This document shows, piece after piece, positions 20,396 through 38,914 of a stretch of 64,000 bases of DNA; within the stretch, counting starts at the first letter, position 1, and the number at the start of each line of letters is the position of its first letter. The notes beneath the pieces were generated by a model. The model made no database searches and was not told the origin of the DNA. It was given only the letters and a program-made list of their open reading frames with translations. Source of the stretch: Pratylenchus scribneri (Eukaryota > Nematoda > Chromadorea > Rhabditida > Pratylenchidae); the NCBI GenBank assembly GCA_030063045.1, contig JAQSEB010000082.1, positions 682,001 to 746,000 of the forward strand, in the 5' to 3' direction. Made by a program: the position numbers and the translations under genes.

Positions 20396-20411
20396 CTAAA
20401 AATTTTTTTGC

Positions 20412-20690: not shown

Positions 20691-20705
20691 TTAAATTAAT
20701 TTACA

Positions 20706-20888: not shown

Positions 20889-21495
20889 CGCTCCTTTTAC
20901 TTTAATTTTATGTGGCGCCACGGGTAGTGGTAAAACAAAATGGCTTTTAAAATTTTTAAATTATACAGAAGAATTGATAAATCCTCCCCCTGTAAAAATT
21001 TTATATTGTTATGGAGAAATGAATGAATCTATTATCGCTTTAAAAAGTAAAGGTATCGAAACCTACAATGGGTTGCCTGATACTGAACTTATTAAAAGTC
21101 AAGAAAAGCCCTTACTTTTAATATTAGATGATTTAATGCTTAACATGAAAAATGATTTTATTGATTTACTCTTTACAAGGGGATCACATAACTGGAATAC
21201 TTCTATTATATTTGTCACACAAAGTCTTTATGGTCGGGATATTAAGACTGCTCGTGCAAACTCTCATTATCTTGTTTTGATGAGAAATCCCTCTGCCCAA
21301 TTGCATGTGAGAACTTTAGGAAGTCAACTTTTCCCTCGTCGTCTAAACTATTTTATGGAGGCATATAACGATGCTACCAAAGAACCATTCACATATTTGC
21401 TTATAAATATGCACCCTAATGCTCCAGAAAACTTAAGATTATCTACAAATATTTTTCCTAATGAAAAAATTACAATCTACTTACCAGCTGATTAG
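20881..21495 (+). CDS. FtsK/HerA-type genome packaging ATPase
   Basis: 204 residues. Walker A GATGSGKT at residues 12-19 and Walker B LLLILDD ending at Asp83-Asp84. A following TRGSHNWNTSIIFVTQS stretch fits the sensor region of A32-like viral packaging ATPases. In Mavericks and related viruses this enzyme pumps DNA into the capsid. The length is normal for the Polinton version. Intronless. ATG overlaps the end of the Cys-rich gene. Confidence 0.92.
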   Translation: MFNAPFTLILCGATGSGKTKWLLKFLNYTEELINPPPVKILYCYGEMNESIIALKSKGIETYNGLPDTELIKSQEKPLLLILDDLMLNMKNDFIDLLFTRGSHNWNTSIIFVTQSLYGRDIKTARANSHYLVLMRNPSAQLHVRTLGSQLFPRRLNYFMEAYNDATKEPFTYLLINMHPNAPENLRLSTNIFPNEKITIYLPAD

Positions 21496-21506
21496 TATAT
21501 AAATAG
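21496..21506 (+). promoter_or_regulatory. TATA box before 116-residue gene
   Basis: TATATAAATAG, 25 bases before the ATG at 21531, identical to the box at 20412. It sits in the only real gap between genes in this part of the block. Confidence 0.6.
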
Positions 21507-21530
21507 AATAGAAAAAATTTTAAAAATAAA

Positions 21531-21881
21531 ATGTATGAATTTAGTCCATATATAAGAGAAAACGTTGAATTTCTAAAGAAGCTTGCTTCTACAAAATCTG
21601 ATAAAAAGAAAAACGCTATACTTTTGAACGCTAGTGCAGAACAAATATTAGCTATCGTAGAGATTTGTGCAAATATTCTAAAATTCAATTTCACTTTAAC
21701 TAAACCACAAAAAACGAAATTAGCCAGATACGCTGATTTTTACAGATCAATTGCACGTTCTAAAACTGAAAAAAGTGCGAGAAATAGAATCCAACAAGGT
21801 AGTGGCATTGCATTAGGAGCTATATTAGTCCCGGTATTAGCAGAACTTGCGGCGCATTTAGTTCAAAAAATTGTAAATTAA
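21531..21881 (+). CDS. Small basic Maverick protein with hydrophobic C-terminus
   Basis: 116 residues. The N-terminal half is helical and rich in Lys, with a conserved-looking NAILLNASAEQILAIVEIC. The C-terminal 30 residues are hydrophobic (GIALGAILVPVLAELAAHL) and could be a membrane-active or capsid-internal helix. Proteins of this kind recur beside the ATPase and integrase in Mavericks and adinto-like viruses, and a virion core role has been suggested for some. I cannot assign a function. Confidence 0.6.
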   Translation: MYEFSPYIRENVEFLKKLASTKSDKKKNAILLNASAEQILAIVEICANILKFNFTLTKPQKTKLARYADFYRSIARSKTEKSARNRIQQGSGIALGAILVPVLAELAAHLVQKIVN

Positions 21882-21882
21882 A

Positions 21883-22779
21883 ATGAAGCATGCAAAGAAA
21901 ATGATTATGATTCCTGAAGTGGAATATTTGGCTTTACTTTCTATGATGAAGAGTGATGATCCTCTAAAAACAGAGAAGGCTTTAATAGACGCTAAAATAC
22001 ATCAAAATTTATCAAATAAAAAAATTTCTGAAGATATTAAAGCCAAGAAATATGACTGGCTTTTAAAACAAAAAAGAAAGTTAAGAGAGATGATTGAAGG
22101 AAAACCTCAAAAAGTCGTCATTGAAAATTTACCTCCGCCCATAAATATACCTCCATATATGGGAATTAATCAAGAACAGAAAAATAAAATCGAAATTCCC
22201 GAAAGAACACCGGTAAGAAATGGTAGGCAACGTCGGAATTTAACTGAGAGTGTAAGCACAATTCAAAGTGTAACCCCTGAGAGTGCAACCACATCTGGAC
22301 GAGATAGATCACAATCTGAAATTTATTCATCTGATTATGACACACCAAAACAAATAGCTAAAAGTCAATCAAAAACTCCTTCACAGGCAGCAACTGCATC
22401 TACATATACAAAATCTCCCTCGCCCATAACGCCTAAATCTTTCACAAAATTAATGAATTATGTTGGGAAAAATAAAGAAAAATTGGGAATAAATAGCGAT
22501 GGTAGTATTTTAACAAATTTTAAAAAACCTGTGGGTGGAAGCAATTATGTCGATGTTTTAAAATATTTGTCAGGCCAATTGTCAACCCCACCAAAAGGTC
22601 ATAGTTTCCTGAAAGCAAAGCTATCAAAAGATCCAGAATTTATAAGAATTTTTGGTCAAATAGGAAAAGGGAAGAAAAATAAAAAATTAGTAGTAGTTAA
22701 ATTAAACCCTATAAAAACTCCTGGACTTAAACGAAATAAAATTATTTCATTTAAACCAAAATTATGGGCAAGACTCTAA
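21883..22779 (+). CDS. Basic Maverick protein, 298 residues, unknown role
   Basis: It begins one base after the previous stop. Strongly basic N-terminal helix region (residues 1-75, ending LLKQKRKLREMIEGKP), a Pro-rich link, a Ser/Thr/Gln-rich disordered centre (about 100-185), and a compact C-terminal domain with GSNYVDVLKYLSGQ and a lysine-rich tail. Similar basic proteins recur at this position in Polintons, perhaps as DNA-binding virion proteins. No catalytic motif is seen. Its end overlaps the integrase start by 16 bases. Confidence 0.6.
   Translation: MKHAKKMIMIPEVEYLALLSMMKSDDPLKTEKALIDAKIHQNLSNKKISEDIKAKKYDWLLKQKRKLREMIEGKPQKVVIENLPPPINIPPYMGINQEQKNKIEIPERTPVRNGRQRRNLTESVSTIQSVTPESATTSGRDRSQSEIYSSDYDTPKQIAKSQSKTPSQAATASTYTKSPSPITPKSFTKLMNYVGKNKEKLGINSDGSILTNFKKPVGGSNYVDVLKYLSGQLSTPPKGHSFLKAKLSKDPEFIRIFGQIGKGKKNKKLVVVKLNPIKTPGLKRNKIISFKPKLWARL
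22710..22717 (+). promoter_or_regulatory. TATA-like box before integrase
   Basis: TATAAAAA, 46 bases before the integrase ATG at 22764, inside the previous gene. Confidence 0.4.
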
Positions 22780-23846
22780 AGGAAAATATTCTCCAAGATA
22801 TTTATTATAATTTAAATTCTCCTGCAAGCTATGCTGGAATAAATAAAATTCTTATTGAAGCCAAAAAGAAAAATAAAAACATTTCAATAAAAGATGTAAA
22901 AGATTTTCTCTCGAAAGAAAGAACATATACATTATTTAAGCCACGAAGAATTAGATTCAAAAGACTTAGAACTATTCCAACAGGATTGAATACCGACTGG
23001 CAATGTGATTTATGTATATTTGATAGTATTAAAAAAGAAAATGATAATAATGCTTATTTACTAGTTTGCATTGATGTTTTAAGTCGGAAAATTCATGTTG
23101 CCCCTGCTAGAACGAAAAAAAGTGAAGACATGATTAATGCTTTTAATATAATATTTGATAAATCAAATATATTACCGAATAAACTTTACAGTGATGCTGG
23201 TGTCGAGTTTCAAGCAAAAAAAATGTTAGATTATTTTAGGGAAAAAGATATTATAAAGCATGTTATGTACACACCAAATTTACATGCTGGAGTAGTGGAG
23301 AGGGCAAATAGGACGATTAAAGGGAGATTATACAAATATTTTAGTGAGAAGAATACGACAAGATGGATTGAAATAATTGACAAAATTGTGAATGGAATAA
23401 ACAATAGCATAAACCGGACTATAGGGATGAAGCCGAATTCTGTAAATTATAAAAATGCGCATGAGCTATTAGAGAGAGTATATAAATCAAACAAGGATGA
23501 AAATGCAAATCCAAAATTTAAAATTGGTGATATTGTAAGAATATCAAAAGAAAAAACTAAATTTGAGAAAGGCTATTTGCCAAATTTTACCGACGAATTA
23601 TTTAAAATCATAAAAGTAAGTCTAACCGATCCTCCGTCCTATAGAATTGCTGATCTAGAAGATAATAAAATTGAAAGTGTATTTTATGAACAGGAATTAG
23701 TATTGACAACAAAAGATACAACCTATAGAATTGCAGAAGTCATAAAAACACGTAAAAGAAAGGGTATAAAAGAACTATTTGTTAGGTGGGTAGGCTACTC
23801 AGAAAAGCATAATTCTTGGATAAAAGAATCCGATTTAGTAAATTAA
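22764..23846 (+). CDS. Retroviral-like integrase with C-terminal chromodomain
   Basis: 360 residues. It inserts the element into host DNA. The N-terminal Polinton/Ginger-type region (YYNLNSPASYAGINKILIEA, TYTLFKPRRI) replaces a retroviral HHCC finger. The catalytic core has Asp82 (DWQCD), Asp144 (YSDAGVEF) and Glu179 (GVVERANR), with 34 residues between the last two. After an SH3-like region, residues from about 323 (YRIAEVIKTRK, LFVRWVGYSEKHNSWIKE) form a chromodomain, which in related elements can direct integration to marked chromatin. All three acidic residues are present, so it looks active. Confidence 0.95.
   Translation: MGKTLKENILQDIYYNLNSPASYAGINKILIEAKKKNKNISIKDVKDFLSKERTYTLFKPRRIRFKRLRTIPTGLNTDWQCDLCIFDSIKKENDNNAYLLVCIDVLSRKIHVAPARTKKSEDMINAFNIIFDKSNILPNKLYSDAGVEFQAKKMLDYFREKDIIKHVMYTPNLHAGVVERANRTIKGRLYKYFSEKNTTRWIEIIDKIVNGINNSINRTIGMKPNSVNYKNAHELLERVYKSNKDENANPKFKIGDIVRISKEKTKFEKGYLPNFTDELFKIIKVSLTDPPSYRIADLEDNKIESVFYEQELVLTTKDTTYRIAEVIKTRKRKGIKELFVRWVGYSEKHNSWIKESDLVN
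23765..23772 (+). promoter_or_regulatory. TATA-like box before minor capsid gene
   Basis: TATAAAAG, 75 bases before the ATG at 23848, within the integrase chromodomain coding region. Confidence 0.4.
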
Positions 23847-23847
23847 T

Positions 23848-26166
23848 ATGGACAATTTTTATACAGTATTACCCTCAAATACTGCTATAGAAGGTAATAA
23901 AACTTCGAATTATACAATTAGGTTACCTGAACCATTAAATTTAGATTCAAATTGGTCTGTCGCTCTCTCTTCGATAATTTATCCTATATCATTTACATCG
24001 CTAGGAACTCAAGAAGACCAATTTATTACAATAAATAATGAGGTAGGAGATGATGAAAAAATTCCAATTCCTGCGATGAATTTTCTTTCTATTTCAAATT
24101 TGGAAAAGGGGATAAATGATGCAATATTGGCATATGAAAAAGATTCTAAACCTAGATTTACCAGATCAATTTTAGAAAATGAGGGTCAATTAAAAACACC
24201 AGAAAGAATACAAGAAACGCCTGAAATAATTGCAGCTGTTCAAGAATTTCAAAGAAAGAAAGCGGCAGAAGGAAATGTTAGGCAAGAGAATACTAACCAA
24301 TCTAATGATTTAGCTCAAGCTGCTATTAATATAGAAGATCAAAAGAAATTATTAGCGGCACAGAGGGCAATAGAAAAGGCATTTAATCAATGCGTAGCTC
24401 TAGCATCGCAAGTCGAAACTTGGGCCCAATTAGCAAGAGCAAAAAGACAAAAAAGTGAGCGGCTCAGAAGGAAATTTCCAGATGTTGGACAAGAATTGTA
24501 CAATGATCTCTTGTCAATAGCTAATACCATTCAAGACAAGGCGGTCCTAATAGCAGAAGAAACCAAAATTGCCGCCAATGCTAAAAATAAAGTTATAGAA
24601 TTCAAAGAAAGCCGGGATGTCAGAGAAGCAAGAAAAGTTGCGGACATTGCCAAAAAAGCTGAACAAAATGCAAGAAAATTAGCAAATGAAGCAGGTAGTT
24701 TATTTGCCGGAAACCCGGAAAGAAATTATCAAGACGGGGTTGAACAAATTACTAATAAAATTGAATTTCTTATCAATTCTGTTACGGAGCCGTCGAAAAA
24801 AGATGAAGGTGAATCAACAGTAATAGAACAACCTATGCCTGTTCCTCAATATCCTCCGGATCATCCAAAATTGCAAAATCAAGGAACAACTGAAGCAAAA
24901 GCTGAGGTTTCTACAAACAAAGAAAGTGAAGGAGTGATAAAGAATACTAATAATGAAAGAGAAGGAGAAATACAGACTGAAAAGGAAGGCGAATTGAAAA
25001 CTCTAACGAGAATAGAGGAAAGTCCCGAAATTATTGCAGCAGTCGAAGAATTTAAGAAAAGAAAGGAAGAAGAAAGAAAAAGGAAAGAAGGGATCACCGA
25101 ATCTTCTCAGCCTCAAGCTACCGTCACATCTCAGCAACCTGCTACCATTTTATCTCAAGATGAATCTGGTTCTGCGAATGCTCTTCAAAAAATTGAAGAG
25201 CCTAAAGAAATAATTGACGCAGTTAATAAATTAGAAAGTAAAGAACAAGAGAAAAGTAAAATTCATTCGCCAGCTACTCCTTTGTTTCCTCTTAAACCCA
25301 AGGTTGATATACCAAAACCACAATTGCCCGTTATTGAATCAAGTGATGAAGAATATGAATGGCTGAAGCCAAAAACAACGGCGATTAAAGAAGAAAAGAA
25401 AATAGAAAAAAGTAGCCAAAATAATTGGATTATAAGCCAAAGTGCAGAAGAAATCGAATTACTTCCACAAAAAAAGATTACTGAATATGTCAATAAAAAG
25501 CCTGAGCCAATAAGAATAAAAGGCTTTTTCATACCAGATGAGACTGAGAATGAAGAAGATTTATCATCATTACCAGAATTACCAAAGCCACAAGCCTTGG
25601 TAAGTAGTACCAGTCATTTAGATGAATCGGGAAGAGAATTAAATATACCCGAACAAGTCCATCGCAGCTTGATGAATAGGCTTAAAAAGATTGGAAAAAT
25701 GGCTAAAATTCCATCTGATTCTACACAAAGGGTCCAATTCAGATATGATAATGTCTATCAAAAATTTACTGTTTTGATGCAAAAAAATATTAAATCAATA
25801 CAGATTTCTAAACAACTTGCATATATCCTGGGTTTCCGAACGAATGTAAATATAATAGGTGGAGATATAGCAGAATATATGCCAGACCTGTCTGGAGGGG
25901 TAAAACAATTATATATATATGCACCAAAACTCATTGAAAATACAATGGTCGGAGATGAATTAGTCCCTTTATTGCGAGTAGTTAATGTACAGGGAAAACC
26001 GGGTGAGATTGTAGAGTCTATATATAGCTCAGAATTTCATCATAGATTACAATCCAAAAGAATTACTGAAATCAGTATTGAAATCAGAACATCTTCAGGC
26101 GAATTAGTCAATTTTCACTGGGGAAATATAATTTTAACATTACACTGGAAGCGTTCATTTTTCTAA
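23848..26166 (+). CDS. Penton-like minor capsid protein with large internal insertion
   Basis: 772 residues. The N-terminus (FYTVLPSNTAIEG, YTIRLPEPLNLDSNWSVAL) and the C-terminus (residues about 625-772, with VYQKFTVLMQ, LAYILGF, LYIYAPKL, LVPLLRVVNV, GNIILTLHW) are the two conserved parts of the Polinton penton protein. Between them, about residues 105-620, lies a long charged Glu/Lys/Gln-rich region. It contains three diverged copies of an RIxExPEIIAAVxEF motif (around 120, 388 and 447) and helical coiled-coil-like segments. Typical family members lack such an insert. It starts one base after the integrase stop. Confidence 0.85.
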   Translation: MDNFYTVLPSNTAIEGNKTSNYTIRLPEPLNLDSNWSVALSSIIYPISFTSLGTQEDQFITINNEVGDDEKIPIPAMNFLSISNLEKGINDAILAYEKDSKPRFTRSILENEGQLKTPERIQETPEIIAAVQEFQRKKAAEGNVRQENTNQSNDLAQAAINIEDQKKLLAAQRAIEKAFNQCVALASQVETWAQLARAKRQKSERLRRKFPDVGQELYNDLLSIANTIQDKAVLIAEETKIAANAKNKVIEFKESRDVREARKVADIAKKAEQNARKLANEAGSLFAGNPERNYQDGVEQITNKIEFLINSVTEPSKKDEGESTVIEQPMPVPQYPPDHPKLQNQGTTEAKAEVSTNKESEGVIKNTNNEREGEIQTEKEGELKTLTRIEESPEIIAAVEEFKKRKEEERKRKEGITESSQPQATVTSQQPATILSQDESGSANALQKIEEPKEIIDAVNKLESKEQEKSKIHSPATPLFPLKPKVDIPKPQLPVIESSDEEYEWLKPKTTAIKEEKKIEKSSQNNWIISQSAEEIELLPQKKITEYVNKKPEPIRIKGFFIPDETENEEDLSSLPELPKPQALVSSTSHLDESGRELNIPEQVHRSLMNRLKKIGKMAKIPSDSTQRVQFRYDNVYQKFTVLMQKNIKSIQISKQLAYILGFRTNVNIIGGDIAEYMPDLSGGVKQLYIYAPKLIENTMVGDELVPLLRVVNVQGKPGEIVESIYSSEFHHRLQSKRITEISIEIRTSSGELVNFHWGNIILTLHWKRSFF

Positions 26167-26571
26167 ATGACTCACATATACATTGATCCTGATAAACTAG
26201 ATTGGAGCGGTTTCCTCTCATCCCAAGAGGGAACTGGCAAATATTTTGTAGGTACTAAATATCAAAGAGGCTTTGGAGTATTTACGAATACGATTTTACC
26301 TGGTATTGCTAGATTTTTGATGCCAGTGGCCAAAAATATTGCTAGTACAGCCGGTCAAGAAGGGATAGCCGCGGGATCAAAAATTTTAGGTGATATTTCT
26401 CAAGGAAGGGATATAAAAGAATCATTAGCTGAACATTCTAAACAGAGCCTACAAAATATAGCAACTAAATTACAGCAGTGTGGCAAAGGTAAAAGCAAAA
26501 AACGCCGGACTATAAAAAGCCTTCCAGATAAGAAAAAACGAAAATATATTGATCAGTTAACCTTTCCATGA
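26167..26571 (+). CDS. Maverick core/pVI-like small basic protein
   Basis: 134 residues, directly abutting the previous stop. The N-terminal segment (GKYFVGTKYQRGFGVFTN) and amphipathic centre (LPGIARFLMPVAKNIAST, then GSKILGDISQGRDIKESL) match small Polinton proteins of adenovirus pVI/pX character, which lie inside the capsid. The C-terminus is a lysine/arginine cluster (GKSKKRRTIKSLPDKKKRK) suited to DNA binding or nuclear targeting. Confidence 0.7.
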   Translation: MTHIYIDPDKLDWSGFLSSQEGTGKYFVGTKYQRGFGVFTNTILPGIARFLMPVAKNIASTAGQEGIAAGSKILGDISQGRDIKESLAEHSKQSLQNIATKLQQCGKGKSKKRRTIKSLPDKKKRKYIDQLTFP

Positions 26572-26578
26572 AAATTAG

Positions 26579-26587
26579 TATAAATAG
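26579..26587 (+). promoter_or_regulatory. TATA box before major capsid gene
   Basis: TATAAATAG, 31 bases before the ATG at 26618, in one of the few spaces between genes of this block. Confidence 0.6.
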
Positions 26588-26617
26588 TTGTAAAATAAAT
26601 AAATTCTTACAGTAAAA

Positions 26618-28048
26618 ATGACGACTCTTAAAAAAATTGATAGATTAAGCGCTGAAGGAATTGAAAATTCCTTAGCTATATTCGAATTACCTCCTACAAA
26701 TGTGGCAATAAACAAAACAACGACCAGAGAGTTGCTTCCGCTTGCAGCATTAAATGACTCCGGCCCTTATACTTTTAGGCTTTTTGCAGATAATCAATTT
26801 CCTGACCTTTCTCGTACCTGGCTCTATCTGGCAACAAGAATTGAGAAAAAGGTTGGAGATGAGTGGGTCCCGATAAAAGTAACACCTGAGATTCCTGCGG
26901 TACCTGCTCAGGGCGATAATCCTGCAATTCCTGCTGTTCCTGCTAACGAGGATGATAAGCATGTTGGAGTAATTCAAAACTTTGGACAATCATTTATTCG
27001 GCAAATGACTATGAACATATCAAATGTCGAAGTGTTCAACAGCGGTATTCACTACGCCTATCGTTCGTATATTTTACACGAACTCGGACTATCTCATGAA
27101 ACAAGGAGGGCATTACACGAAGCCAGTTGCTATTATCCCGATGATTTGGACCAAAATAAGGAAACAAATAAAGGTTTTGTGGCACGGGCAGCAAGATTTG
27201 CCAATGGCCAAACTTGTGAGACACTAGTTAGGTTGAATTTCGACCTAGGAAATCAAGAGCTATTGATGCTTTCAAATAGTGACATAATATTTACAATTCA
27301 TAGGAATAGTGATGATTTCTTACTTTTATGTCCATATTATGAGAGAGAAGTTGCAGGTGGTAGACAGGAAGTATCGGCAGCAAACCATGCGACTTATCGT
27401 CTAAAAGTTCTGGACATGAGATTATATGTTAAAACTGTGGATATTACGCAATCATTAAACAATGCCATAAGTCGACATTTAGAGACAAATGTGGCCAAAT
27501 ATCCGATTCGACGAATAGAAATGAGGAGTCTGTTCGTGGGCAAAGGTCGTACTGACCTAGCATGGAATTGCTTCACAAGTATTGTACCTAGACGTTTAAT
27601 AATCGGGTTCGTCTCAAATGATGCTTACAGTGGTAGGAAAACATTGTCTCCTTTCAAATTCGAACATGCAAATGTTAGAAGTATCTGCGCGGAAGCCAAT
27701 GGGAATACATATCCAAATGTTGCTTATAATTTAGATTTTAGTGAGAATAAATTTATTCGAGCTTTCACCGATTTGTATTCAGGATTAGGGATGGATAATA
27801 TCGATCGAACCATCTCTATCGGGATGCCAAAATTTATGCTGAGTCACTGCTTTTTTGTAATCCCTTTAACTTCCACTTTAGAGGATTCTCCTGGCTTTGA
27901 AACAATAAGAAATTCAACGACCACAGTTAAAGTTCAATTTAACGAACCTATTAAAGATGATGGATATGAAATGATAGTTATGGGAGAATTTGACGGTATT
28001 ATTTCGATCGACAAAGATCGGATCATCACATCTGATGGCCAAGTATAA
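26618..28048 (+). CDS. Double jelly-roll major capsid protein
   Basis: 476 residues. Opening motif (LAIFELPPTNVAINKTTTRE) and the segments SWLYLATR-like, QSFIRQMTMNISNVEVFNSG, YRSYILHELG, DIIFTIHRNSDDFLL and TRHLETN-like fit the Polinton major capsid family often annotated as F54H12.2-like. It is homologous in fold to adenovirus hexon. An Ala/Pro-rich repeat (EIPAVPAQGDNPAIPAVP) near residue 90 probably forms an exposed loop. Length is usual. Intronless, with its own TATA box. Confidence 0.93.
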   Translation: MTTLKKIDRLSAEGIENSLAIFELPPTNVAINKTTTRELLPLAALNDSGPYTFRLFADNQFPDLSRTWLYLATRIEKKVGDEWVPIKVTPEIPAVPAQGDNPAIPAVPANEDDKHVGVIQNFGQSFIRQMTMNISNVEVFNSGIHYAYRSYILHELGLSHETRRALHEASCYYPDDLDQNKETNKGFVARAARFANGQTCETLVRLNFDLGNQELLMLSNSDIIFTIHRNSDDFLLLCPYYEREVAGGRQEVSAANHATYRLKVLDMRLYVKTVDITQSLNNAISRHLETNVAKYPIRRIEMRSLFVGKGRTDLAWNCFTSIVPRRLIIGFVSNDAYSGRKTLSPFKFEHANVRSICAEANGNTYPNVAYNLDFSENKFIRAFTDLYSGLGMDNIDRTISIGMPKFMLSHCFFVIPLTSTLEDSPGFETIRNSTTTVKVQFNEPIKDDGYEMIVMGEFDGIISIDKDRIITSDGQV

Positions 28049-28051
28049 AAG
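28044..28051 (+). promoter_or_regulatory. TATA box before protease gene
   Basis: TATAAAAG, 30 bases before the ATG at 28082, overlapping the stop of the capsid gene. Confidence 0.55.
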
Positions 28052-28081
28052 AATTTTATTATTTTATTTAACCTTAAAAAT

Positions 28082-28525
28082 ATGAATTCGCTTCAAATCA
28101 ATTCAATTCTTAAAAATAATTGTCATACCAAAAAAATTTTTAAAGGGGTTTATTCCTCAAATAACATACCTTTATTTAAGAATTATCCCCACTGCTTTAT
28201 TGCCAACACAGATAGGAAAGGAACCAAAGGTGAACATTGGGTCGGGTTTTTCGTGAATAATCGAAAAAATATTGAATATTTTGATTCGTATGCCGACAAG
28301 CCAAATGAAGACATATCTAAATATTTATCAAATTTTTTAGAAATAAAAATCAATAGTCATACAATACAATCGCCTTTTTCTGATAGCTGTGGACATTTTT
28401 GTGTATATTTTATCTTTAATAGATGTATAGGAATAAGTTTTAAAGAAATAATTAAAAATTTATTAAATTCAAAAAATACCATAGATTTATTAGTAAAATT
28501 TTTTGTTAGTTTATTGATAAAATAA
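28082..28525 (+). CDS. Adenain-like cysteine protease
   Basis: 147 residues. Virion maturation protease of the Ulp1/adenain clan. Catalytic set His52 (GEHWVGF), Asp68 (EYFDSY), Gln96 (TIQSPFS) and Cys103 (DSCGHFCVYF) are all visible in order. Length is slightly short but normal for Mavericks. Last gene of the + strand virion block; the next gene runs convergently, two bases away. Confidence 0.93.
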   Translation: MNSLQINSILKNNCHTKKIFKGVYSSNNIPLFKNYPHCFIANTDRKGTKGEHWVGFFVNNRKNIEYFDSYADKPNEDISKYLSNFLEIKINSHTIQSPFSDSCGHFCVYFIFNRCIGISFKEIIKNLLNSKNTIDLLVKFFVSLLIK

Positions 28526-28527
28526 TA

Positions 28528-28863
28528 TTATTCAGTATTTTCAATTAATACAATTTCATCCTGCAATTCTTTTATCTTCTTATCTATAATTCTCTTCTCT
28601 GATTCTAAATCACGAATTTCACTCTTCATTTTTGTTGCATCTTTGATATCTGATAGTTCAAATTCGCTAAATTCTATGACAAATTGTTTGCCATCCTCTT
28701 TATAAAATATAATTTCCACTGCCTCTATTTTTGTTAAAGTTGAAGATTGATTGAAATCCAATTTTCGCATTATGTCAAAAAGCGGAAATTGGAGTTGTCT
28801 AAATGAATTGAATATTTGCAAAAATTTTTCACGAATGGTTCCAGAAAAATATTCTCTCGACAT
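28528..28863 (-). CDS. Small coiled-coil Maverick protein
   Basis: 111 residues. The C-terminal third has a heptad-like helix (KMKSEIRDLESEKRIIDKKI). The N-terminal two-thirds looks like a small alpha/beta domain. Family not recognised. GGATTTAG directly precedes the ATG on this strand, which could be a trans-splice acceptor. First of five minus-strand genes ending at the polymerase. Confidence 0.55.
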   Translation of the reverse strand: MSREYFSGTIREKFLQIFNSFRQLQFPLFDIMRKLDFNQSSTLTKIEAVEIIFYKEDGKQFVIEFSEFELSDIKDATKMKSEIRDLESEKRIIDKKIKELQDEIVLIENTE

Positions 28864-28948
28864 CTAAATCCATATTTTTAAATTTAAATGAATTAAAAAT
28901 ATTTTTTGACATAAACATATAATTAGAAATTTTTTAGAAATTTATTTA

Positions 28949-29407
28949 TCAAATATGACGGCCACAAAAAATTATAGTAAAATTAAAATCTTCATCATTC
29001 TTTCCAAATCGTAAAGCCGAATTGCTTTCTAGCGTACGGTATAGACATCTCTCACAATATATTTGTCTATCATGTATATTTTCAATATTGGCATTGGCAG
29101 ATGAAATTTCAAATGACTCTATTGGACGGTCTTCCCAAACTTTTTCCCAATCAAATTGTTTAATTAGAAAAATTATAAAATTTTTTGTATCAAATTCCTT
29201 GCCCTTTTTTGTAAGTTTTAGAGCCAATTTTATTATCGGATGCTTAAGGCAAACACAGCAATGTTGTCTGACGCAACTTTTTTGTAATATTCTTTTTCTA
29301 GAGACAGTCATTCCATGTAATAAAATGCAGTGGCAATATTTAGGTATTGGATTTTTTTCCGTCACACGTTTCAATCCGCAATCACACATTCCTTCTTTTT
29401 GAGCCAT
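28949..29407 (-). CDS. Cys/His-rich hypothetical Maverick protein
   Basis: 152 residues. Cysteine pairs at MCDCG, KYCHC, RQHCCVC and YCERC, plus a final FCGRH, suggest one or two zinc sites. Between them lies a helical segment (FIIFLIKQFDWEKVWEDRP). I know no family with this pattern. TTCTTTAGG precedes the ATG. It lies next to the PAZ gene on the same strand. Confidence 0.6.
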   Translation of the reverse strand: MAQKEGMCDCGLKRVTEKNPIPKYCHCILLHGMTVSRKRILQKSCVRQHCCVCLKHPIIKLALKLTKKGKEFDTKNFIIFLIKQFDWEKVWEDRPIESFEISSANANIENIHDRQIYCERCLYRTLESNSALRFGKNDEDFNFTIIFCGRHI

Positions 29408-29511
29408 CCTAAAGAAATTTAAAATTGTAAAAAAAACAAATAGAGTTATTTGTTTCTTGTAACATATAAAAGAATAAAAATAAAAGTCAAAAAAATTTTA
29501 TACAAATTTGT

Positions 29512-29892
29512 TTAATTAATTTTTAATGCATCAATGTCAAAAAATTCGATCACTTCAAGCGGAAAGTAATTCTTATGAGTGCCGCCCCCCTTAACAGCGA
29601 TGCAAGGAAGGAAAGGGTAACGCAAATCCCAATTGTGTTTTATGAAATAATATTGATCGACAGTGATTTTTTTGAATCCTCGGTGTGAAAACAGAGCACA
29701 AGCTTTACGATTTGTAATGAAATCCGGACATATTGTGATATTGAATTTCAAATGTTTTGTTTGTAGCGCACCACTTTTAATAAAATTAAAATTAGCAACA
29801 TAATTTCGATGAATGGCCTCAGCAAGATTTATCGGTTCACATTTGTTAAATTCGCACAAAGCAGTAACCAAATTTTTATTTGTTTTCTCCAT
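29512..29892 (-). CDS. Stand-alone PAZ-domain protein (Argonaute-like)
   Basis: 126 residues. Residues about 8-118 follow the end of the Argonaute L1 linker and the whole PAZ domain: an L1-like helix start (NLVTALCEF), TVDQYYFIKHN at 78-88, RYPFLPC at 91-97 and YFPLEV at 109-114. In Argonautes these correspond to the T/V-x-x-Y-F, Y-P-x-L-P-C and YLPLEVC positions of the pocket that holds the 3' end of a small RNA. No N, MID or PIWI part is present here or nearby, and the frame is complete from ATG to stop. A single domain of this kind could sequester small RNAs or compete with host Argonautes; that role is inference. TTATTTAG precedes the ATG. Confidence 0.8.
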   Translation of the reverse strand: MEKTNKNLVTALCEFNKCEPINLAEAIHRNYVANFNFIKSGALQTKHLKFNITICPDFITNRKACALFSHRGFKKITVDQYYFIKHNWDLRYPFLPCIAVKGGGTHKNYFPLEVIEFFDIDALKIN

Positions 29893-29993
29893 CTAAATAA
29901 TCTAAAGTGGATTATTTGTTAAAATAAGAAATTTAATGGAAAATTTCCATAAATTTGAAAATAAAAATCAAATCCAAATATTTATTCAAAAAA

Positions 29994-30878
29994 TTATTTA
30001 TGTAAATTTTTATGTTTCTCATCCAGCACTTCCAATAAAACAGGAAAATGATCATTTTTCCTTCTCTTCTTTATTATTCCGGAATAATTTAATACGAATA
30101 ATCCTATGAATATAATTAAAAGTTCCATGCCATAAAGTATGAGGAGATATACATTAGTAGAATTGCCCAAGTTATAATCGGAATTTGGCTTATAGAATAT
30201 GTAATTAAAATGTAGTGAATTGGTCGTTGTTACGAAATTATAGTCCTTTTCTTCAATTTTCTTTTTAAAAATTTTGTTGTCTTTAATTATATAAATGGCA
30301 TCCTCAATTATTAAAAAATCCGAAATTGTCTTTTCTATTGTTGTAATTAAATTAATCTTCAAATATCCATCGGATGCTTTATTAGTTGATTTCCATATAT
30401 TTTCAAAATCATTCATTTCGATGTCATATATCATTGAATTATTTATTAGATATAATTTTTTTGACAAATAATCATATTTTATGTCGTCAAATGATATTTC
30501 CAAGGTTTTGCCATTATTCTTTCCTTTAATCATTACAATTTCGTTATTGTCTTTATATTTATAAATAATATAGCTATAGCGATTGAATTTGAAGCAATTT
30601 ATTATTTTAATTTGATTTGGATGCCTAGAAATTTCAAAGAGGGAATCGGAAGTTCTTTCAAATGTTTGCCAGTTCTGCGTATAGGCTATAATATTCCTGT
30701 TTGTGACTTGAACGAAGCAGATATTATTCTCATCATAACCAAAAATTTTTTCATTAGCCGAATTTTTTGATATTGTAGAATATATGGAGTCGAAGTAATT
30801 TGATGGATTTATATTGATTTTATATTCGATAACTTCGCCACTAGTGATTACGGTTAATGTCAATAAAATTATAAACAT
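29994..30878 (-). CDS. Predicted type I membrane glycoprotein of the Maverick
   Basis: 294 residues. An N-terminal signal peptide (MFIILLTLTVITSG), an ectodomain of about 225 residues, a membrane span (VYLLILYGMELLIIFIGLFV) near residue 250 and a basic cytoplasmic tail (KKRRKN). The ectodomain has few cysteines, many beta-strand-like repeats (KKLYLINNSMIYDIE, DAIYIIKDNKIFKKKI) suggesting a propeller-like fold, and possible N-glycosylation sites. An envelope or attachment role is possible but unproven. It does not look like the herpes gB-type fusogen of other worm Mavericks, which is far larger. Confidence 0.65.
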   Translation of the reverse strand: MFIILLTLTVITSGEVIEYKININPSNYFDSIYSTISKNSANEKIFGYDENNICFVQVTNRNIIAYTQNWQTFERTSDSLFEISRHPNQIKIINCFKFNRYSYIIYKYKDNNEIVMIKGKNNGKTLEISFDDIKYDYLSKKLYLINNSMIYDIEMNDFENIWKSTNKASDGYLKINLITTIEKTISDFLIIEDAIYIIKDNKIFKKKIEEKDYNFVTTTNSLHFNYIFYKPNSDYNLGNSTNVYLLILYGMELLIIFIGLFVLNYSGIIKKRRKNDHFPVLLEVLDEKHKNLHK

Positions 30879-30961
30879 CCTAAAATAAAATTAATCTGGG
30901 CAAAATAATTTTTAAATATTGAGATAAAACTTTCAAATATTATAAAATATAAAATTAAAAT

Positions 30962-33900
30962 TTATTCATAGCCAAAAGGCTGCACATCATAATTATCTTT
31001 AATAATCCCTTTTTGACACTTTGTTATATATTTCTTTTCAACCCTTTTACTGTAAATTCTGGAATCTCTCTGTGGATTGATTTTGACATATTCAAATTTA
31101 ACAGACTCTTGATCTAAACCAAAATTTAAAACCATATTTTTGAATTCATCATATTGAAATTTTTGGCAACTCTGGTAATCAAGAGTAATTCCTAAATTTG
31201 CATTACACTATTTATTTAAAAAATTATTAACCTCTCAATTTTAAAATACTCTTTATTTCACCGGTACTTTTATTTTTTAATTGTAATGCAAGTTGTTTGG
31301 CCTATAATAAAATTAATCCTTTTATTATTCTTTATTACTTACTCCCCCACTACAAAATTCCAAAATTTCAAAATCTTTATATTCTTTCATCATTTCGCCA
31401 AGGAAACTACCATTTTTTATTGGTTCTACATCTTTTGGATGTGAAAATATAATCGAGTCAGTATCTTAAATTAAATATTATATAATATAAAATAAAAAAA
31501 ATACCTGTATATAAAATTTTACACCCTGGCGTATTATTTACATCCTCCATATATTTATACAAAACCAAACGAGCTGCACTAGTTGTCCACAAAGACATTA
31601 TCTAAATGTTTATAAATTTAAAAAGTCGATTAAGTGCTATCATCATGAACATACTATATTGCTCGAATTATGTTCTTCGCAATATTCTTTCTTATCTTTG
31701 TAGACTAGTCTCATAGTTGTTTCTGACATTGGCAGTATCATATTAACCTCTTTTGTGTGATCAAATATTAATTTAAAATATTCAGATGGATCAATAATGA
31801 TTTCGCTTTTCGCCAAAGTATTGCGCATTGAAAATTTCCCCCATAATGAATTTAAGCATAATTTGGCAATATGACGTAATCCTGGATTAAATTTGACATT
31901 TTCCAGATCAATTTCTATGCCATATTTTTCTTTATATTCGTTTTTGAAATTTATTTTATCGTCATCCGTTTTCACATTTTCGGGAAAACCACTGGCTTCA
32001 ATTTTTATTTTCAAAAAAAGCCTAAAATTTCATTAAATTATGCATTAGAATTTAACCTTACCTGACATATTCTTTAAACAAGTTACTAGAAAATTTGTTA
32101 TAGTGCCATGCCCGATAAAATTTTTTCACCATATATTTTTTTCTCAATGCTTCTTCTAATTCCATACTGGTAATGGTTGTTGTAAATTCTCGTTCCTTAT
32201 CAGTGTGCGGACATTTGTGTTCTGTTTTTGTATTCTTAAATTCAAAATCTTTGGCACAACGATGACAGAGCGAGAAAAGCATCCTCTGGTCACAACGTAT
32301 GGGTATTACTGGCACCATAAGATTTTTTGGAGGTAAAATTCTGACTTTTAGCAGACCCTTATAGGGAATATCTTCGGGGCAAGTCCATAAAACATCTTCA
32401 TTTTTTGGTATTATAATTTCTGGAATTCCAATAGGGTAACTTAAAATATAATTTTGTTTAAATTATTAATATTTAATACCTTGTATTGTAATTTATAAAA
32501 GGATATAAACTAATTATATCAAACATTGAAAGTTTTTCATTTTCATTAGCTTTTTTATAAAGACATAGAGGTCTAAATTTTAATTCAAGTTTATAACATT
32601 GAAAAAAATTTCTTACCCTGTCCTTCCACCAAAATATGCATCTCTAGGATCTATAGGTCCCATGTCATTTCCAATATCATCAATAAATTCTTTCATTTCC
32701 TTATCTTTTTTCTTTTCTTCATGGACTTCACACTCCCATTTTACATCGACTTTAACCATTTTAGAAATTTCATTAATCCGTATCCAAGTATTTTCATTAT
32801 TTTCTTTCATAGTTTTTCCGTTTATACTTTTATCCCCTGGCTGATAGCATTTTAAACATCCGTGAAAGTTACATCTAAAATAATATAAATAAAAATAACA
32901 TAAATCTTACCCCAAAAATTCTATAGCTCGGTTATCTTTTTCGATATATCCGTCTAATTTATATTTACCAATCCGCATTTCACCACCATTTGCTGCAGTC
33001 TTTATATCTAATTGATGTTTCTTTGAAATCCATTCAAAATATTTCAAAGATGCGGCACTGGCCCGATCATTTCTCTCATATCCACCTAATTTATTTAGTA
33101 CTTATTATTTTAAATGAAAAAACCTTCGGGGACAATGGCTATCGTATTATTAAGTAAGAATTTGGATTTAAATATATTCATTGAAATTCCGGCGATTGTA
33201 GCACTTTTTTCGAATACATCGAATCCGCCTGTTATTTGAAGTAATATTTTTCTCATCTCAATAATTGCTTCAAGCAATATTTCTGTATCATTTGACCCAT
33301 ATTCATATAATTTTTCCGGTAGATAAAATGGCGTGTTTTGATTCTTAAAATACCATTCAATAAATTCCTTTCTATCAGCCAAATTCATTCCATCTGGTAG
33401 ATAATCATCCATTGGGGGTAAACGATCAAGTTTGTTATTATAATTTTCTCGTTTATTAAATAAATAAGGAAAATATAATTTATTTTCAGCCTTTAAATTA
33501 AATGTCTGCTTCAAGTCCTTTAATTTGACATTCATAAGCAAATATGAATCTCGGAAAGTCAGCGAAGAAAAATTCCTTCCAGCCTTGACAGTGAATTCAT
33601 ATATTTTTGAACCAGACATTAGCAAACGAGATGGAGCAATTTTTAATTTGTAAAGGCGTTGAAGAACAAAATGATGATCAAATTTTCCTCCGTAATGCGC
33701 ATATATTAAAGTTTTAAATTCCTGTGAATATCCTTTCAGCACCCATTGTACAAATTCTTCCAAAGGGTCAAGATTCTCCATATCGTCCCATGTTTTGTGT
33801 CTCTCGCTACCACATATTTTACAATTTTCATTAAAAATATCAATACATTGGGTACAAATTATTCTAGCTGAACAGAAATTTACACTATGTTCGAAAATTC

Positions 33901-35462
33901 CCGAATAAGTTTCAACATTTTGAGTAGTTTCAAAGTCATACGCTATTATTCTATATGGTTCCGATGGAGATTGTTTTAAAGGCATTACAAAACAGGAATT
34001 TTTAGGATTATGGATCACACGACATTTTCGGCAATATTTTTCGCCGCAAATATGAGGTTTATTTTTAGTAATTTGATAAACTTTTTCACATTCTTCACAT
34101 TTTTTATATGTAAGACATATTTGGCTTAAATGATGTTCATAGCATTGCTTATTATAATATGTTCTTTTGCATTGTTCACATTTTATTTCAAAGCCTGGCT
34201 CTTTATCACATATTGAAAAATTACTCATATTTGAACACATATAACATCTTGATACACAATTTTTCCGGTGAAGAGCATTACTAAAGGGATTTATAATTTT
34301 AATATAATATTTTTAATTTACGTTGAATAGGTAATTTCACATTCAAAACAATATTTTTTCGTTATTTTGAAAAATTTTGTTACACTTTTTATTACATCGT
34401 AGTGATTTTCAGATAAATATAAAATTATATTATGTTTGCGTGAACGTGGCCCTTTCCATATTGGTTTCAAATACACATTTTCAGATGAAAATATTATTAT
34501 GCGAAATTTTTCGGGATATTCATTATCAAGTAATTGTTGAATTTGAATAATCTCATCTATTCCCGAACTTTTTCCTGGTTTAATATCCATTTTTAATATT
34601 AATTGGTTGACTAGTTCGTTTTGCTTGGCGAGATTTTTATAGAATTTTGCAAATTTTCGGTATTTTGTCTTTGGGTTCAATTCAGAGCATTCTGCATGAA
34701 ACTGTGCCAAGATAATCGCATAATAAAGGCAATTTTCCTCATTTTTTATTTTAATAAGGGCCTTTTCATTGTTGTCCATAAATTTTACTGGCAGTTTTTT
34801 TAAACCGCTGCCTTTTGGAGAGCTAATCGTAGTTATGATTATCCTCATGGGATTAGAAAGCAATGTTACTCTCTTGTCGCTTATATTCAATTTGTCAATT
34901 TCTTCCATAATAACTTCTACGTTGTTATGCTTTCTATCCCTAGTAGGGATGGCTATGGGCGTTTCAAGACCCTTTCCCATTATTAGCATGGAAAAAACGG
35001 AAACCTGAAAAATTATTTCTGAATAAAATTTTTTCTTACTTCTTTTCCAAAAGAATTTGATTTGGAATAAGCTGTATCAATTAAATTTTCGAATATTTCT
35101 TTCAATTTTTCTTCGGGGAATGATATAGCATTTTCCAAAACGAATTCGGTTACGAAATAGCCGGTCGAAAATCGTTTAAAGCGTCCTTCGTGATGGCTTA
35201 TTTCGCGATATGATTCGTTGTTTAATTTTTGAAGATCAGAATCCGATTTACTTCTTTTCAATTTATTATTGGAAGAAGAAAGTTGTTCATTTTTAAAGGT
35301 CAAAAGATCGGAATCGGAATAGAATCTTTTTAATTTACTTAAGGGTATTTTTATAGTTGGAATAGAAAGTTGTTCTTTTGGAAGATGTGGATCCGAATAA
35401 GATTTTTTAATTTTTTTTGATGGTATTTCATTTGATGGAGAATGTTTCCTTTTTGTAGTCAT
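30962..35462 (-). CDS. Protein-primed family B DNA polymerase, 12 exons
   Basis: Replicates the element. Exons 35040-35462, 34322-35004, 33124-34280, 32911-33085, 32617-32874, 32480-32572, 32062-32439, 31655-32021, 31505-31601, 31343-31464, 31232-31301 and 30962-31191 sum to 4053 nt, about 1350 residues, with every phase consistent. In order: a Ser/Lys-rich N-terminus; the conserved Polinton N-terminal region (ENCLYYAIILAQFH, NIILYLSENHYDVI); Cys-rich zinc region (33950-34240); exonuclease motif Exo I (YDFETT) and later exonuclease motifs; EFLGCNFHGC; palm motif A (DIISLYP); motif B region (LCLNSLWGKF); motif C (YTDTDSI), whose codons span an intron. It appears intact. The number of introns is unusual beside the intronless virion genes. 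Confidence 0.93.
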
Positions 35463-35639
35463 TAAATAATCAATTAATTAAATATTAATATAAAAATAAA
35501 ATAATAATAATAAAATTAATATAATAATAATAAAATTAATATAATGATAATAAAATAATAATAATAAAATTTAATTTTAATAATTTTTATAATGATTTTG
35601 AGCCTCGATTTGGAGCTCCTTTTATAGGCCGCTAGAAAA

Positions 35640-36115
35640 CCGGTTTTAATATAAAATCAGCGAAGCGTATCAAATAAAACCATTGAAGCGGAAAATTTAA
35701 TTAAATTTGCTTGGAAAACCAGTTTTAAGGAGGAAAATCATCGAAGCGTATCCAAATAAAACCATTGAAGCGTAAAATTTAATTAAATTTGGATTGGAAA
35801 ACTCGTTATGAAATCAATGAAGCGTGACCAATTAGGCAAAACTGGTTGTAAAATCAGTGAAGCGTGACCAAAACCCAATTAGACAAAACCGGTTGTAAAA
35901 TCAGTGAAGCGTGACCAAAAACCAATTAGACAAAACCGGTTGTAAAATCAGTGAAGCGTGACCAAAAACCAATTAGGCAAAACCGGTTGTAAAATCAGTG
36001 AAGCGTGACCAAAATTCCATTTTATAAACCGGTTTTTAATGGAAATCGGTGAAGCATATCCTAAATCCAATTAAATAAACCGGTTTTTAATGGAAAATCA
36101 ATGAAGCGTATCCGA
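35640..36115. repeat. GAAGCG-bearing tandem repeats between divergent genes
   Basis: Tandem units centred on AATCAGTGAAGCGTGACC, with a 47-bp period for the best copies (35861, 35908, 35955, 36002) and looser copies on both sides (TCGAAGCGTATCC, TGAAGCGGAAAA). About a dozen GAAGC(G/A) cores occur. Each unit also has AAACCGGTT, a short palindrome. The terminal repeats of the element contain the related AGCGAAGCGGAATC. The array lies between the polymerase start (minus) and a + strand gene, so it could be a replication or promoter control region. Confidence 0.85.
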
Positions 36116-36144
36116 AAACCGGATTTTATAGGGGATGAATGGGG

Positions 36145-36153
36145 TATATAAAG
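36145..36153 (+). promoter_or_regulatory. TATA box before 71-residue gene
   Basis: TATATAAAG, 82 bases before the ATG at 36236 and directly beyond the tandem repeat array. Confidence 0.55.
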
Positions 36154-36235
36154 AGATTAAAATTGCTGTAATTTTATATTATTTAAAATAAATAATTTAT
36201 ACAATTTAAATTAATTTTTAATTTTATTATTTTAA

Positions 36236-36582
36236 ATGGCTTCTCAAGAAACAACTGAAATAAAGGAGAATCCAAAATTTAATAACAATGTCAACACCGA
36301 TTGGCTCCTCTTAATGCCTAGAAGCCTGTAATATATTAGCAAAATTTAATTAATTTTTATTAAATTTATATTAGTTATATTTTTTTTCTCTGCAATACTT
36401 GCAGGCAAATCATTTATCAGAATAAAAATTTAATAGAGGATACCGGCGATGGTTGTAGAGTAAAAAATAAAAATAAATTTAAAATAAAATTTAAAAATAA
36501 AAATTTAAAATAGGTAACAATCACGATGTGCAATTTTTGCCGTACAAAAAACAAAGGAGTGGCAAACCTTATGAAAAAATAA
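36236..36582 (+). CDS. Small spliced CxxC protein, unknown
   Basis: Three exons (36236-36327, 36405-36459, 36514-36582) add to 216 nt, giving 71 residues. Contains TDWLLLMPRSLQIIYQNK and a C-terminal TMCNFCRTKNKG with one CxxC. All introns are GT-AG and the frame is consistent. No family recognised. Being small, the model rests on splice signals and the upstream TATA box. Confidence 0.45.
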
Positions 36583-37671
36583 AATATATATTTGTAAATT
36601 TTTCAAAATTTTATTTCTAAAATTATGATAAATTTTTAAATCGAAAAATCTCTATTTATTAGAAAACTAGCTCAGGGTCGCCTCTTTGGGGCACAGAGAA
36701 TTTGTTTGAGAAAATAAAAAAGTTGAAAAAATATTAGGTATTAGCTGCCTTTGCTTTATATCTAAAGCCGCAATTAACTCTTCTATAACTACATAAAAAA
36801 GAAAAAAGCCATTTACAAAACTGCATATTTCATGGCCAAACTTAAATTTAATCAATTAATATCACCTTCATCATTAGTACTACCCAATATTTGATATTTC
36901 CATAATCAAAATCTTATATCACCAAAGCAGCCATAATTTATTATTGACCAAGCTGCGCATCACTTCCCCTCAATCAAAGAAGCCACCATCACTCCCCCTC
37001 AATCAAAAACCTATTTAGTATTTAGCCTGTCATGATCATCATTCATCACCCTCGAAAAAACTCTAGTAAACATAACCAGCTAATCCATCTTCAAAAATAT
37101 AAAGAAAATTAGGTAATATTCAAAATTTACTGCCACACAAAAATATATACTAAAATTACATATTGGATAGTTCACGAAATCTGTCCCGCGTCCGCGTCCC
37201 AATCATTTATTTTTCCCTTTTAAAGGTTATTAATAACATATTTATTTTAAGCCTAGATTGCAATTAAATATTGATTAAAATTAAAATTAATTTTCAAAAT
37301 CCTCTACTTTAATAGCTCGGTGTTGCTCGACTTGTTGCGCGATCACAATTCACAAATTGGCAATTGGTGCGAAATTGTCAATGAAAATCAGGTTTTATAT
37401 ACCATAAATAACAAAATGAAAAATATTTTATTATCAAAAATATGCCAATGGCCACATTCGAATCATTCAAAAGTCAATACATAATTGACGAGAACGGCCC
37501 ATTCTACATCTCAAATTGAATTTAAACTTTCGCATTCAAGAATAAGCCAACTCCAAATTCATTAGGTTAGTTGGAAAGGTAAAAACTGGCTCATCGGCCA
37601 CCAAAACCGGAAGTTTTTTTGTTGCAATTATTTAATAATATACATCAATATTTATTATTTTATTAATAAGA
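36583..37671. other. Maverick right arm, no gene recognised
   Basis: AT-rich DNA with a few short open frames lacking ATG starts, domains or splice support. It lies between the small CxxC gene and the TRAPPC4-like remnant. Base composition is slightly less AT-rich than the virion block. Confidence 0.5.
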
Positions 37672-38393
37672 ATGACCATTTATCATGTTTTGGTGATTAA
37701 TCGAGCAGGGCTGCTGATTTATGATTGGGAAAATCGCCGATCATTGACCCCCAAATCATCCCTTAGACTGCCAATGAGAAAATAATTCCTGCCAATATTT
37801 TCCATTCACTCTACACAATTGCATCACAACTTAGTCCGGTTCAAAAAAGTTCGGGTGTTGAAGTGTTGGAAACAATTCAATTCAGGTTAAATATTTAATT
37901 TCAATTAATATTTAATTGAGAATTTTATTTAAATTTGATGAAAAAATAGATTTTAACAGTAGTAGTTCGGCCTAGTCCCCCCCAAAACTATACACAATCG
38001 ATAAATTTGGTCAAGACGCATCGAATTGTATATATTTCGGCATGGATTGATCAAAAATTAAGATTCACCTTTTAAACCTTTTTGATTTCTTGGTTCAAAA
38101 TAAGTCAAAATTTGTTAAATCTATGCAAAATCATAATAAGAAGAAGCATCTTGACGAGATCTATCGGTTTGGTATAGTGTTTGAGGATCTAGGACAAAGC
38201 ATTAAACCGAAATCTTTGCAATTTTATTTCCTTTAATTAATAAATAAAATTAAGGCTGCAATGTTTTCAATCAATCAATGGCATAAAATTTGTTATGCTT
38301 AGTGCAAATTTAAATAAGCAAAATGTCGAATCATTATTGAGGAAAATATACGAACTTTATGCCGATTTTGCACTCAAATATATTAATTAAATC
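37672..38393 (+). pseudogene. TRAPPC4 (Trs23)-like gene remnant
   Basis: TRAPPC4 is a subunit of the TRAPP tethering complex of the secretory pathway. Three pieces match it in order: the N-terminus at 37672 (MTIYHVLVINRAGLLIYDW), the central longin segment at 37767-37885 (TANEKIIPANIFHSLYTIAS, then SSGVEVLET), and after a 369-bp intron 38255-38384 ([30 protein letters not shown]). The middle PDZ-like part of the protein (about 80 residues) is absent, no donor site is seen after the first piece, and the last piece reaches a stop without the usual C-terminus. An in-phase open stretch after an acceptor at 38515 does not resemble the family. So this looks like a decayed captured host gene. Confidence 0.65.
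37975..38215 (-). repeat. Dispersed repeat within TRAPPC4-like intron
   Basis: GGTCAAGACGCATCGAATTG and following sequence align, inverted, with 9980-10145 in host intergenic DNA (TACAATGCGTCTTGACC). Both also contain AGGACAAA-CATTAAACC-like sequence. A host repeat inside the element supports host origin of this arm or a later insertion. Confidence 0.5.
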
Positions 38394-38914
38394 ATATTTG
38401 CCCTTCATTCTTATATTTTCAATTTACCAAAATTAAGAGTCAAAATTTCTGAAGGAAAATTATATATTTATATTCCCAATTAAATTGCAATTGATTCCAT
38501 TCTTTTTTGTCAGGTACACAAATTTTGGCGAATGTTGGAAAATGTCAATAAAAAATCAAGGCGAAGTGCATACGAATTGCCGGAGAGAATTTACTGGCCA
38601 AACATGAATAAATAAAAAATAAATCAACACATAAAAATTGACAAATTTTTCCCTCATTTTTTATCTTTTTTTAGAATAATGTATGTACAAAATTTACAAT
38701 ATTTTTTTTGAGGGAATTTTTTTGAATTTTTTTGTTTTAATGTTTTTAGCCAAAAATTTTTGTTTTTTTTTAGTTTTTTTGTAAATATTTTAATAATTTT
38801 ATTATTTTTTTAATAAAATTATTAATTTTTATTATTTTTAGCTAAAATTTTTTTATTTTAAAATTTTTTTAGAATTTTTATTTTTTGATTAAATGTAAAA
38901 ATTCAAAAATTCCC

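Follow-up and report, generated by a model that had tools for sequence, protein, structure and literature searches.

A stand-alone PAZ gene in a Maverick element

The sequence analyzed here is a 64,000-nucleotide stretch (the window; G000:C82:682001-746000) of the 227-Mb genome of the nematode Pratylenchus scribneri. It contains a 25.8-kb Maverick/Polinton element, within which an open reading frame (ORF) on the minus strand, with an ATG that ends at 29892 and a stop codon at 29514-29512, encodes a 126-amino-acid (aa) protein consisting of a PAZ domain alone. A preliminary description, made from the letters of the window, had placed a complete frame at exactly these coordinates and had recognized the domain by eye from three motifs (TVDQYYFIKHN, RYPFLPC, and YFPLEV), all of which are present in the frame.

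Profile and structure comparisons bore out this identification. The Pfam PAZ model (PF02170) matched aa 63 to 117 with 35.5 bits (cut-off, 28.8 bits; E value, 1.1e-8), and the Pfam scan of the protein found no further domain. The profile of the PAZ family matched human AGO2 PAZ with an E value of 1.8e-17, and its positions 6 to 123 aligned with residues 3 to 122 of the AGO2 PAZ chain 8thq. The structure model was confident (predicted local distance difference test [pLDDT], 90.4), and its best matches among solved structures were RNA-bound AGO2 PAZ domains; residues 1 to 123 aligned with AGO2 215 to 345, and in comparison with 6ra4 the overall fold was kept at 22% identity. Thus, the two checks that had been proposed yielded a significant PF02170 match and a PAZ-like model, and the ORF is a genuine stand-alone PAZ domain with a PAZ fold. 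The first ∼60 residues had been taken for the end of an Argonaute L1 linker. The alignments to 8thq and to AGO2 215 to 345 rule this out, as these residues belong to the PAZ fold and make up its N-terminal half.

In Argonautes, PAZ, MID, and PIWI occur in one gene, whereas the 126-aa frame holds PAZ alone, and no PIWI match on the window contig (C82) was among the matches listed. The protein is therefore stand-alone, as had been proposed. It resembles the PAZ domains of human AGO2 and AGO1 and of Drosophila Ago (PF02170) in fold and in whole-length alignment, as well as in pocket positions considered below, but it differs from them in being a separate mobile-element protein that has no N, L1, MID, or PIWI part.

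The assignment of the gene to a Maverick also held. The terminal inverted repeats (TIRs) of the element were found by blastn of its ends (a repeat search with 14-base seeds missed them) and are flanked by a 6-bp target-site duplication (TSD), and the ATPase, rve integrase, protease, and polymerase B of the element each exceed their own Pfam cut-off (Table 1). The 25.8-kb element, with both ends present, is a Maverick. Its PAZ gene lies between the protease and polymerase genes, and a putative membrane-protein gene with the same orientation is situated immediately upstream of it.

This neighborhood bears on the possibility that the PAZ protein uses host small RNAs for the benefit of the element, for example by having them carried in particles or aimed at competing elements. 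Mavericks encode particle genes, a meeting report mentions a fusogen of nematode Mavericks (PMC10680173), and the neighbor of PAZ is a putative membrane-protein gene. However, the protein lacks the MID and PIWI parts that would grip a 5' end or act on targets, and this explanation seems very improbable.

Table 1. Features of the PAZ-bearing Maverick element in the window
Feature	Position	Strand	Basis or remark
Stand-alone PAZ domain protein, 126 aa	29512..29892	-	ORF, Pfam, family profile, structure model
Maverick/Polinton element holding the PAZ gene, 25.8 kb	16588..42361		TIRs, 6-bp TSD, integrase, ATPase, protease, polymerase B
Target-site duplication GAGGAA, left	16582..16587		Same 6 bp flanks both TIRs
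Target-site duplication GAGGAA, right	42362..42367		Same 6 bp flanks both TIRs
Left terminal inverted repeat	16588..16736	+	Two pieces, 98.4% and 100% to right copy; poly-C run length differs
Right terminal inverted repeat	42202..42361	-	blastn of the two ends
Packaging ATPase (Pox_A32-like)	20881..21495	+	PF04665, 31.6 bits
Integrase with C-terminal chromodomain	22767..23846	+	PF00665, 36.3 bits; PF00385, 27.9 bits
Putative major capsid protein	26618..28048	+	Position and length only; no Pfam match
Adenovirus-type cysteine protease	28079..28525	+	PF00770, 25.9 bits
Conserved small ORF adjoining protease, coiled-coil-like by eye	28528..28863	-	Matched in 13/13 loci L001-L013
Cys-rich ORF adjoining PAZ (by eye)	28949..29410	-	Matched in 4/13 loci L001-L013; no Pfam match
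Putative membrane protein, possible fusogen	29994..30878	-	Hydrophobic N-terminus and C-terminal span by eye; no Pfam match
Family B DNA polymerase, several open frames	31643..34312	-	DNA_pol_B_2, 73.9 bits for 33110-34309

Copies, linkage to Mavericks, and selection

Full-length copies of the PAZ gene, the window copy included, number 13 in the genome; they are 82 to 100% identical, and all are uninterrupted. At loci L001-L013 the protease and the small ORF beside it were found in every case, the membrane-protein gene adjoins PAZ at 12 loci, and the Cys-rich ORF is present at four. A second PAZ family (L014-L029) occupies 16 loci and encodes proteins of 150 to 171 aa, counted from the first Met, with 37 to 44% identity. 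A protease match lies within 5 kb at all 16 of these loci, and a membrane-protein match was found at 10. Further PAZ matches have 27 to 59% identity over shorter stretches, and some of them are exons of host Argonautes; with such exons included, 133 of 140 matched PAZ stretches have no internal stops.

Some copies depart from the common form. At L030 (922-1809) a membrane-protein N-terminus is joined in one reading frame to a PAZ of the second family, apparently by a rearrangement through which the two were fused. Long acidic N-terminal tails mark the diverged PAZ frames at L031, L032, and L038, and the frames at L031 and L032 also have His/Cys-rich ends. By coordinates, L032 and L038 are near a Maverick protease match, and L031 is near none among the matches listed.

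In each of the PAZ, protease, and ATPase searches no more than 150 candidates were scored, and the genome counts are lower bounds. Two PAZ searches joined gave at least 215 loci, a set that includes host exons and in which the copies are not independent. For at least 138 of these loci, a match to a Maverick protease or ATPase is found no more than 15 kb away; they represent at least 137 places more than 15 kb apart, and the 15-kb zone around the listed protease and ATPase matches covers at most 2.9% of the genome. Conversely, among the matches listed, a PAZ locus is present within 15 kb of 110 proteases and 96 ATPases, out of 150 of each.

Among the 215 PAZ loci listed, 30 have a PIWI match within 10 kb and probably represent host Argonautes. 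Only two of the 138 Maverick-linked loci have such a PIWI match among those listed, which rules out host Argonautes situated near Mavericks as the cause of the linkage. Another 49 listed loci are near neither a Maverick marker nor PIWI, and 12 of these were examined (L031, L037, L039, L042, L043, L044, L047, L048, L053, L063, and the pieces upstream of C46:1066878 and C110:695585). Mavericks of this nematode genome carry the stand-alone PAZ as a conserved gene, and related genes adjoin Maverick markers at many further sites in it.

The element has TIRs, a 6-bp TSD, polymerase B, integrase, ATPase, and protease in common with the cargo-bearing nematode Mavericks of the meeting report. The cargo named in the relevant passage of that report consists of wosp proteases, krma kinases, and a fusogen, with no PAZ or RNA interference-related gene named there (PMC10680173). 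In contrast, PAZ stands beside 110 of the 150 protease matches listed here and is not rare cargo.

Selection was evaluated with the ratio of nonsynonymous to synonymous substitution rates (dN/dS) in eight close copies; the remaining five of the 13 encode an identical or almost identical PAZ protein. The dN/dS of PAZ was 0.033 to 0.103 in 21 of the 23 computable pairs and 0.26 to 0.27 in two very close pairs, and 5 of 28 pairs were saturated. Values were 0.045 to 0.224 for the protease (28 pairs), 0.083 to 0.345 for the membrane protein (21 pairs), and 0.14 to 0.32 for pairs of the second PAZ family. PAZ is under purifying selection and about as constrained as the protease, and it is therefore held like a core gene. 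The low dN/dS and the 13 full-length, uninterrupted copies also indicate that the ORF is not a chance frame.

It could be argued that PAZ is a captured Argonaute fragment without function that hitch-hikes with the element, given that some sister elements have no detected PAZ and that the copy at L030 is a membrane-gene/PAZ rearrangement. However, the selection result nearly refutes this explanation, and the 13 uninterrupted close copies and the rarity of internal stops among the matched stretches also speak against it.

Retroelement-like carriers and probable origin

Some PAZ matches sit in open frames of ∼1500 to 3700 aa. Four such giant frames were sampled via separately read upstream pieces (C223:247484, C46:1066878, C1:2695092, and C110:695585; L042, L047, L065, L066, and L070-L073), and all four carry integrase and/or envelope (Env) domains. 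H2C2, DUF5641, and a phlebovirus-type G2 Env domain (Phlebovirus_G2) were found in the C223 frame, H2C2 and G2 Env in the C46 frame, H2C2 and DUF5641 in the C1 frame, and the G2 C-terminal domain (G2_C) in the C110 frame. These domains were above the cut-off where found, while rve in C223, C46, and C1 scored 27.3 to 31.0 bits, below its cut-off of 32.6. Coordinates and frame length place PAZ and the other domains of C223 and C1 in a single open frame; in C46 and C110 the domain piece is in the phase of PAZ, with 878 and 84 bases, respectively, unread between the piece and the PAZ match. In all three Env-bearing frames (C223, C46, and C110), PAZ follows the Env domain. The Pfam PAZ model scored above its cut-off on the L042 and L043 pieces (29.9 and 30.7 bits) and below it on the C1 piece (L047; 22 to 23 bits). 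The domain set resembles that of Env-bearing BEL/Pao retroelements, and the frames are provisionally labeled BEL/Pao-like.

In order to place the PAZ module, a tree of 49 rows was computed from 12 of 16 fetched host loci (L050, L051, L061, and L062 left out), the 24-row alignment described below, and 13 further relative proteins. The 37 stand-alone PAZ rows fell on one side (support, 94/84), and the nearest host group consisted of seven divergent Argonaute-type PAZ exons (94/88). When seven long or doubtful rows were removed, the split was retained at 92/80 and the union of the stand-alone rows with the nearest host group at 83/89, although the tree program warns of long branches meeting. The seven host loci (L053, L056, L058, L059, L060, L063, and L064) are putatively WAGO-like; five of them have a PIWI match within 10 kb, and L053 and L063 have none. 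The PAZ module probably descends from a nematode Argonaute PAZ, and the sequence comparisons favor, without proving, a WAGO-like lineage as the donor.

Relatives extend beyond this genome. The family profile retrieved 72 proteins at an E value of 0.001 or better from 2803 candidates in the protein database, and the named relatives come from Meloidogyne enterolobii, M. hapla, M. incognita, M. graminicola, and Globodera rostochiensis. These "PAZ domain-containing protein" and unnamed records belong to the same profile family; the named rows are 168 to 189 aa long with only PF02170 or no Pfam domain listed, and they are database entries without a functional description. A search of IMG/VR viral contigs with the alignment of the 72 relatives gave one pattern match and no confirmed relative.

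Pocket residues and proposed function

Two alignments, one of 24 rows selected from the genome loci and a further listing and one of the 72 relatives, were used to evaluate the pocket that holds RNA 3' ends in Argonautes. The [KR]85-H86 pair is kept by 23 of the 24 and 70 of the 72 rows, an H or Y at residue 47 by 23 and 69 rows, respectively, and a pair of aromatic residues at 109 and 110 by all 24 and by 69. In Argonautes, these positions take part in 3'-end binding; K85-H86 align with AGO2 residues 315 and 316, which are altered in the AGO2 R315V/H316A chains. Several predicted pocket positions are thus retained, and the pocket appears to be kept in part. The aromatic residues, whose loss from all copies would have told against the preliminary description, persist in nearly all rows examined.

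It is possible that a lone PAZ imitates the surface of an Argonaute or of Dicer and so obstructs partner proteins or loading complexes, with no need to bind RNA. A stand-alone copy of one Argonaute module that keeps the overall fold at 22% identity to 6ra4 would suit such a decoy, but the [KR]-H and aromatic pairs rank with the most conserved positions; this suggests nucleic-acid binding and makes a pure protein decoy quite unlikely.

The explanation that we favor, although we hold it at evenly balanced odds, is the capture of small-RNA 3' ends as a counter-silencing measure of the Maverick. The PAZ protein would bind host small RNAs by their 3' ends; the likeliest candidates are the WAGO-type secondary small interfering RNAs that silence repeats in nematodes lacking PIWI-interacting RNAs (piRNAs). 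A soluble PAZ with a kept pocket could take up these ends and so withhold the small RNAs from Argonautes or block their hand-over, and the element would be silenced less. According to two studies, no PRG-1 orthologue was found in root-knot nematodes, which have many WAGOs (PMC5934874), and in Ascaris, which lacks piRNAs, repeats and mobile elements are targets of WAGO small RNAs (PMC8837657).

A broader version of this proposal is that, in a piRNA-less lineage, two unrelated element classes (Mavericks and Env-bearing BEL/Pao-like elements) carry a host-derived, probably WAGO-type, PAZ as a shared 3'-end-capturing device against silencing. The presence of PAZ in two classes with different replication favors a host target over a role in replication. 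However, the retroelement copy L042 (C223) is the only one of the 24 rows without [KR]-H, which weakens the argument for the same pocket in both classes, makes the shared-device proposal slightly less likely, and makes its replication rival slightly more so; the other retroelement row, L047, keeps the pair. We regard the shared device as tentative and somewhat more doubtful than probable.

The best of the alternatives, if an unlikely one, is that PAZ serves replication or packaging by capping or recruiting the 3' ends of the linear DNA of the element or of a replication intermediate. The constraint on PAZ, which is about as strong as that on the protease, and the position of the gene between protease and polymerase would fit such a factor, and PAZ can hold deoxynucleotide overhangs (entry 1si2, by its title, combines a PAZ with a duplex that has a deoxynucleotide overhang). 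On the other hand, some sister elements have no detected PAZ, and retroelement-like frames also carry it; retroelements do not replicate as linear protein-primed DNA. The latter objection is itself weakened by the missing pair in the C223 copy.

Several observations weigh against 3'-end capture as a counter-silencing function. In the alignment to AGO2, the window copy shows nothing that clearly corresponds to R-K-Y, the phosphate-contact motif of Argonaute PAZ, and 58 of the 72 relatives have His at residue 81, where Argonautes have Tyr. An isolated PAZ usually binds 3' ends weakly. Arms-race genes often change rapidly, but within the close group PAZ shows the slow evolution of a core gene. 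The alternative donors (an AGO-type row or other host rows) were not rejected (approximately unbiased test, P = 0.24 and 0.11), and the nematode small-RNA studies cited above apply only if the host is a root-knot or related nematode. In addition, 40 of the 150 protease matches listed have none of the listed PAZ loci within 15 kb. Of these, 19 (C14:1250452, C19:1943592, C25:473145, and 16 others) are sisters of the window group with proteases 82 to 86% identical, and for 16 of these sisters an ATPase match lies no more than 10 kb away; PAZ is therefore not needed for the existence of a copy. The three PAZ-less sisters sampled look reduced: L067 and L068 have little or nothing of the polymerase left in the 4.5 kb read, and at L069, where the protease lies close to the polymerase, neither PAZ nor the membrane gene was matched.

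The proposed capture of small-RNA ends would resemble the action of the viral silencing suppressors p19 and B2 in taking small RNAs from Argonautes. Those proteins sequester small RNAs, have unrelated folds, and bind duplexes, whereas a host-derived PAZ would act on 3' ends; suppression by the Maverick PAZ is a proposal. Among the papers listed in searches of the open-access full-text literature, none dealt, to judge by its title and the beginning of its abstract, with a PAZ protein that stands alone or belongs to a mobile element, and no stand-alone PAZ protein is known to us whose function has been described. The mobile-element PAZ is thus likely, though not proved, to be novel. If the proposal is correct, PAZ would represent a new class of silencing suppressor, one for which the host itself supplied the RNA-end-binding domain, and a new case of a defense domain used against the defense that it came from. 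It would directly counter WAGO silencing, the presumed control on transposons in piRNA-less nematodes, and would help to explain the persistence of Mavericks (at least 150 protease matches) in this genome. More than 100 places in the genome with related elements hold PAZ relatives, which may help mobile DNA to evade the RNA-based defense of the worm, and the protein would offer a small, testable handle on the conflict between mobile elements and small-RNA defense in animals.

Further features of these elements were observed. PAZ and ATPase/protease matches recur at constant spacing on C63 (11769, 31914, and 52058; ∼20.1 kb) and C138 (42318, 80727, and 119136; ∼38.4 kb), as if Mavericks were arranged there in tandem arrays. 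In the window, three related ORFs that open with an F-box-like motif lie between the left TIR and the ATPase (17609-19354) and are possible cargo; Pfam F-box matched one of the three, below the cut-off. Short-unit tandem arrays flank the element at 12952-13362 and 47414-48107, and their frames read as repeats of ∼11 residues.
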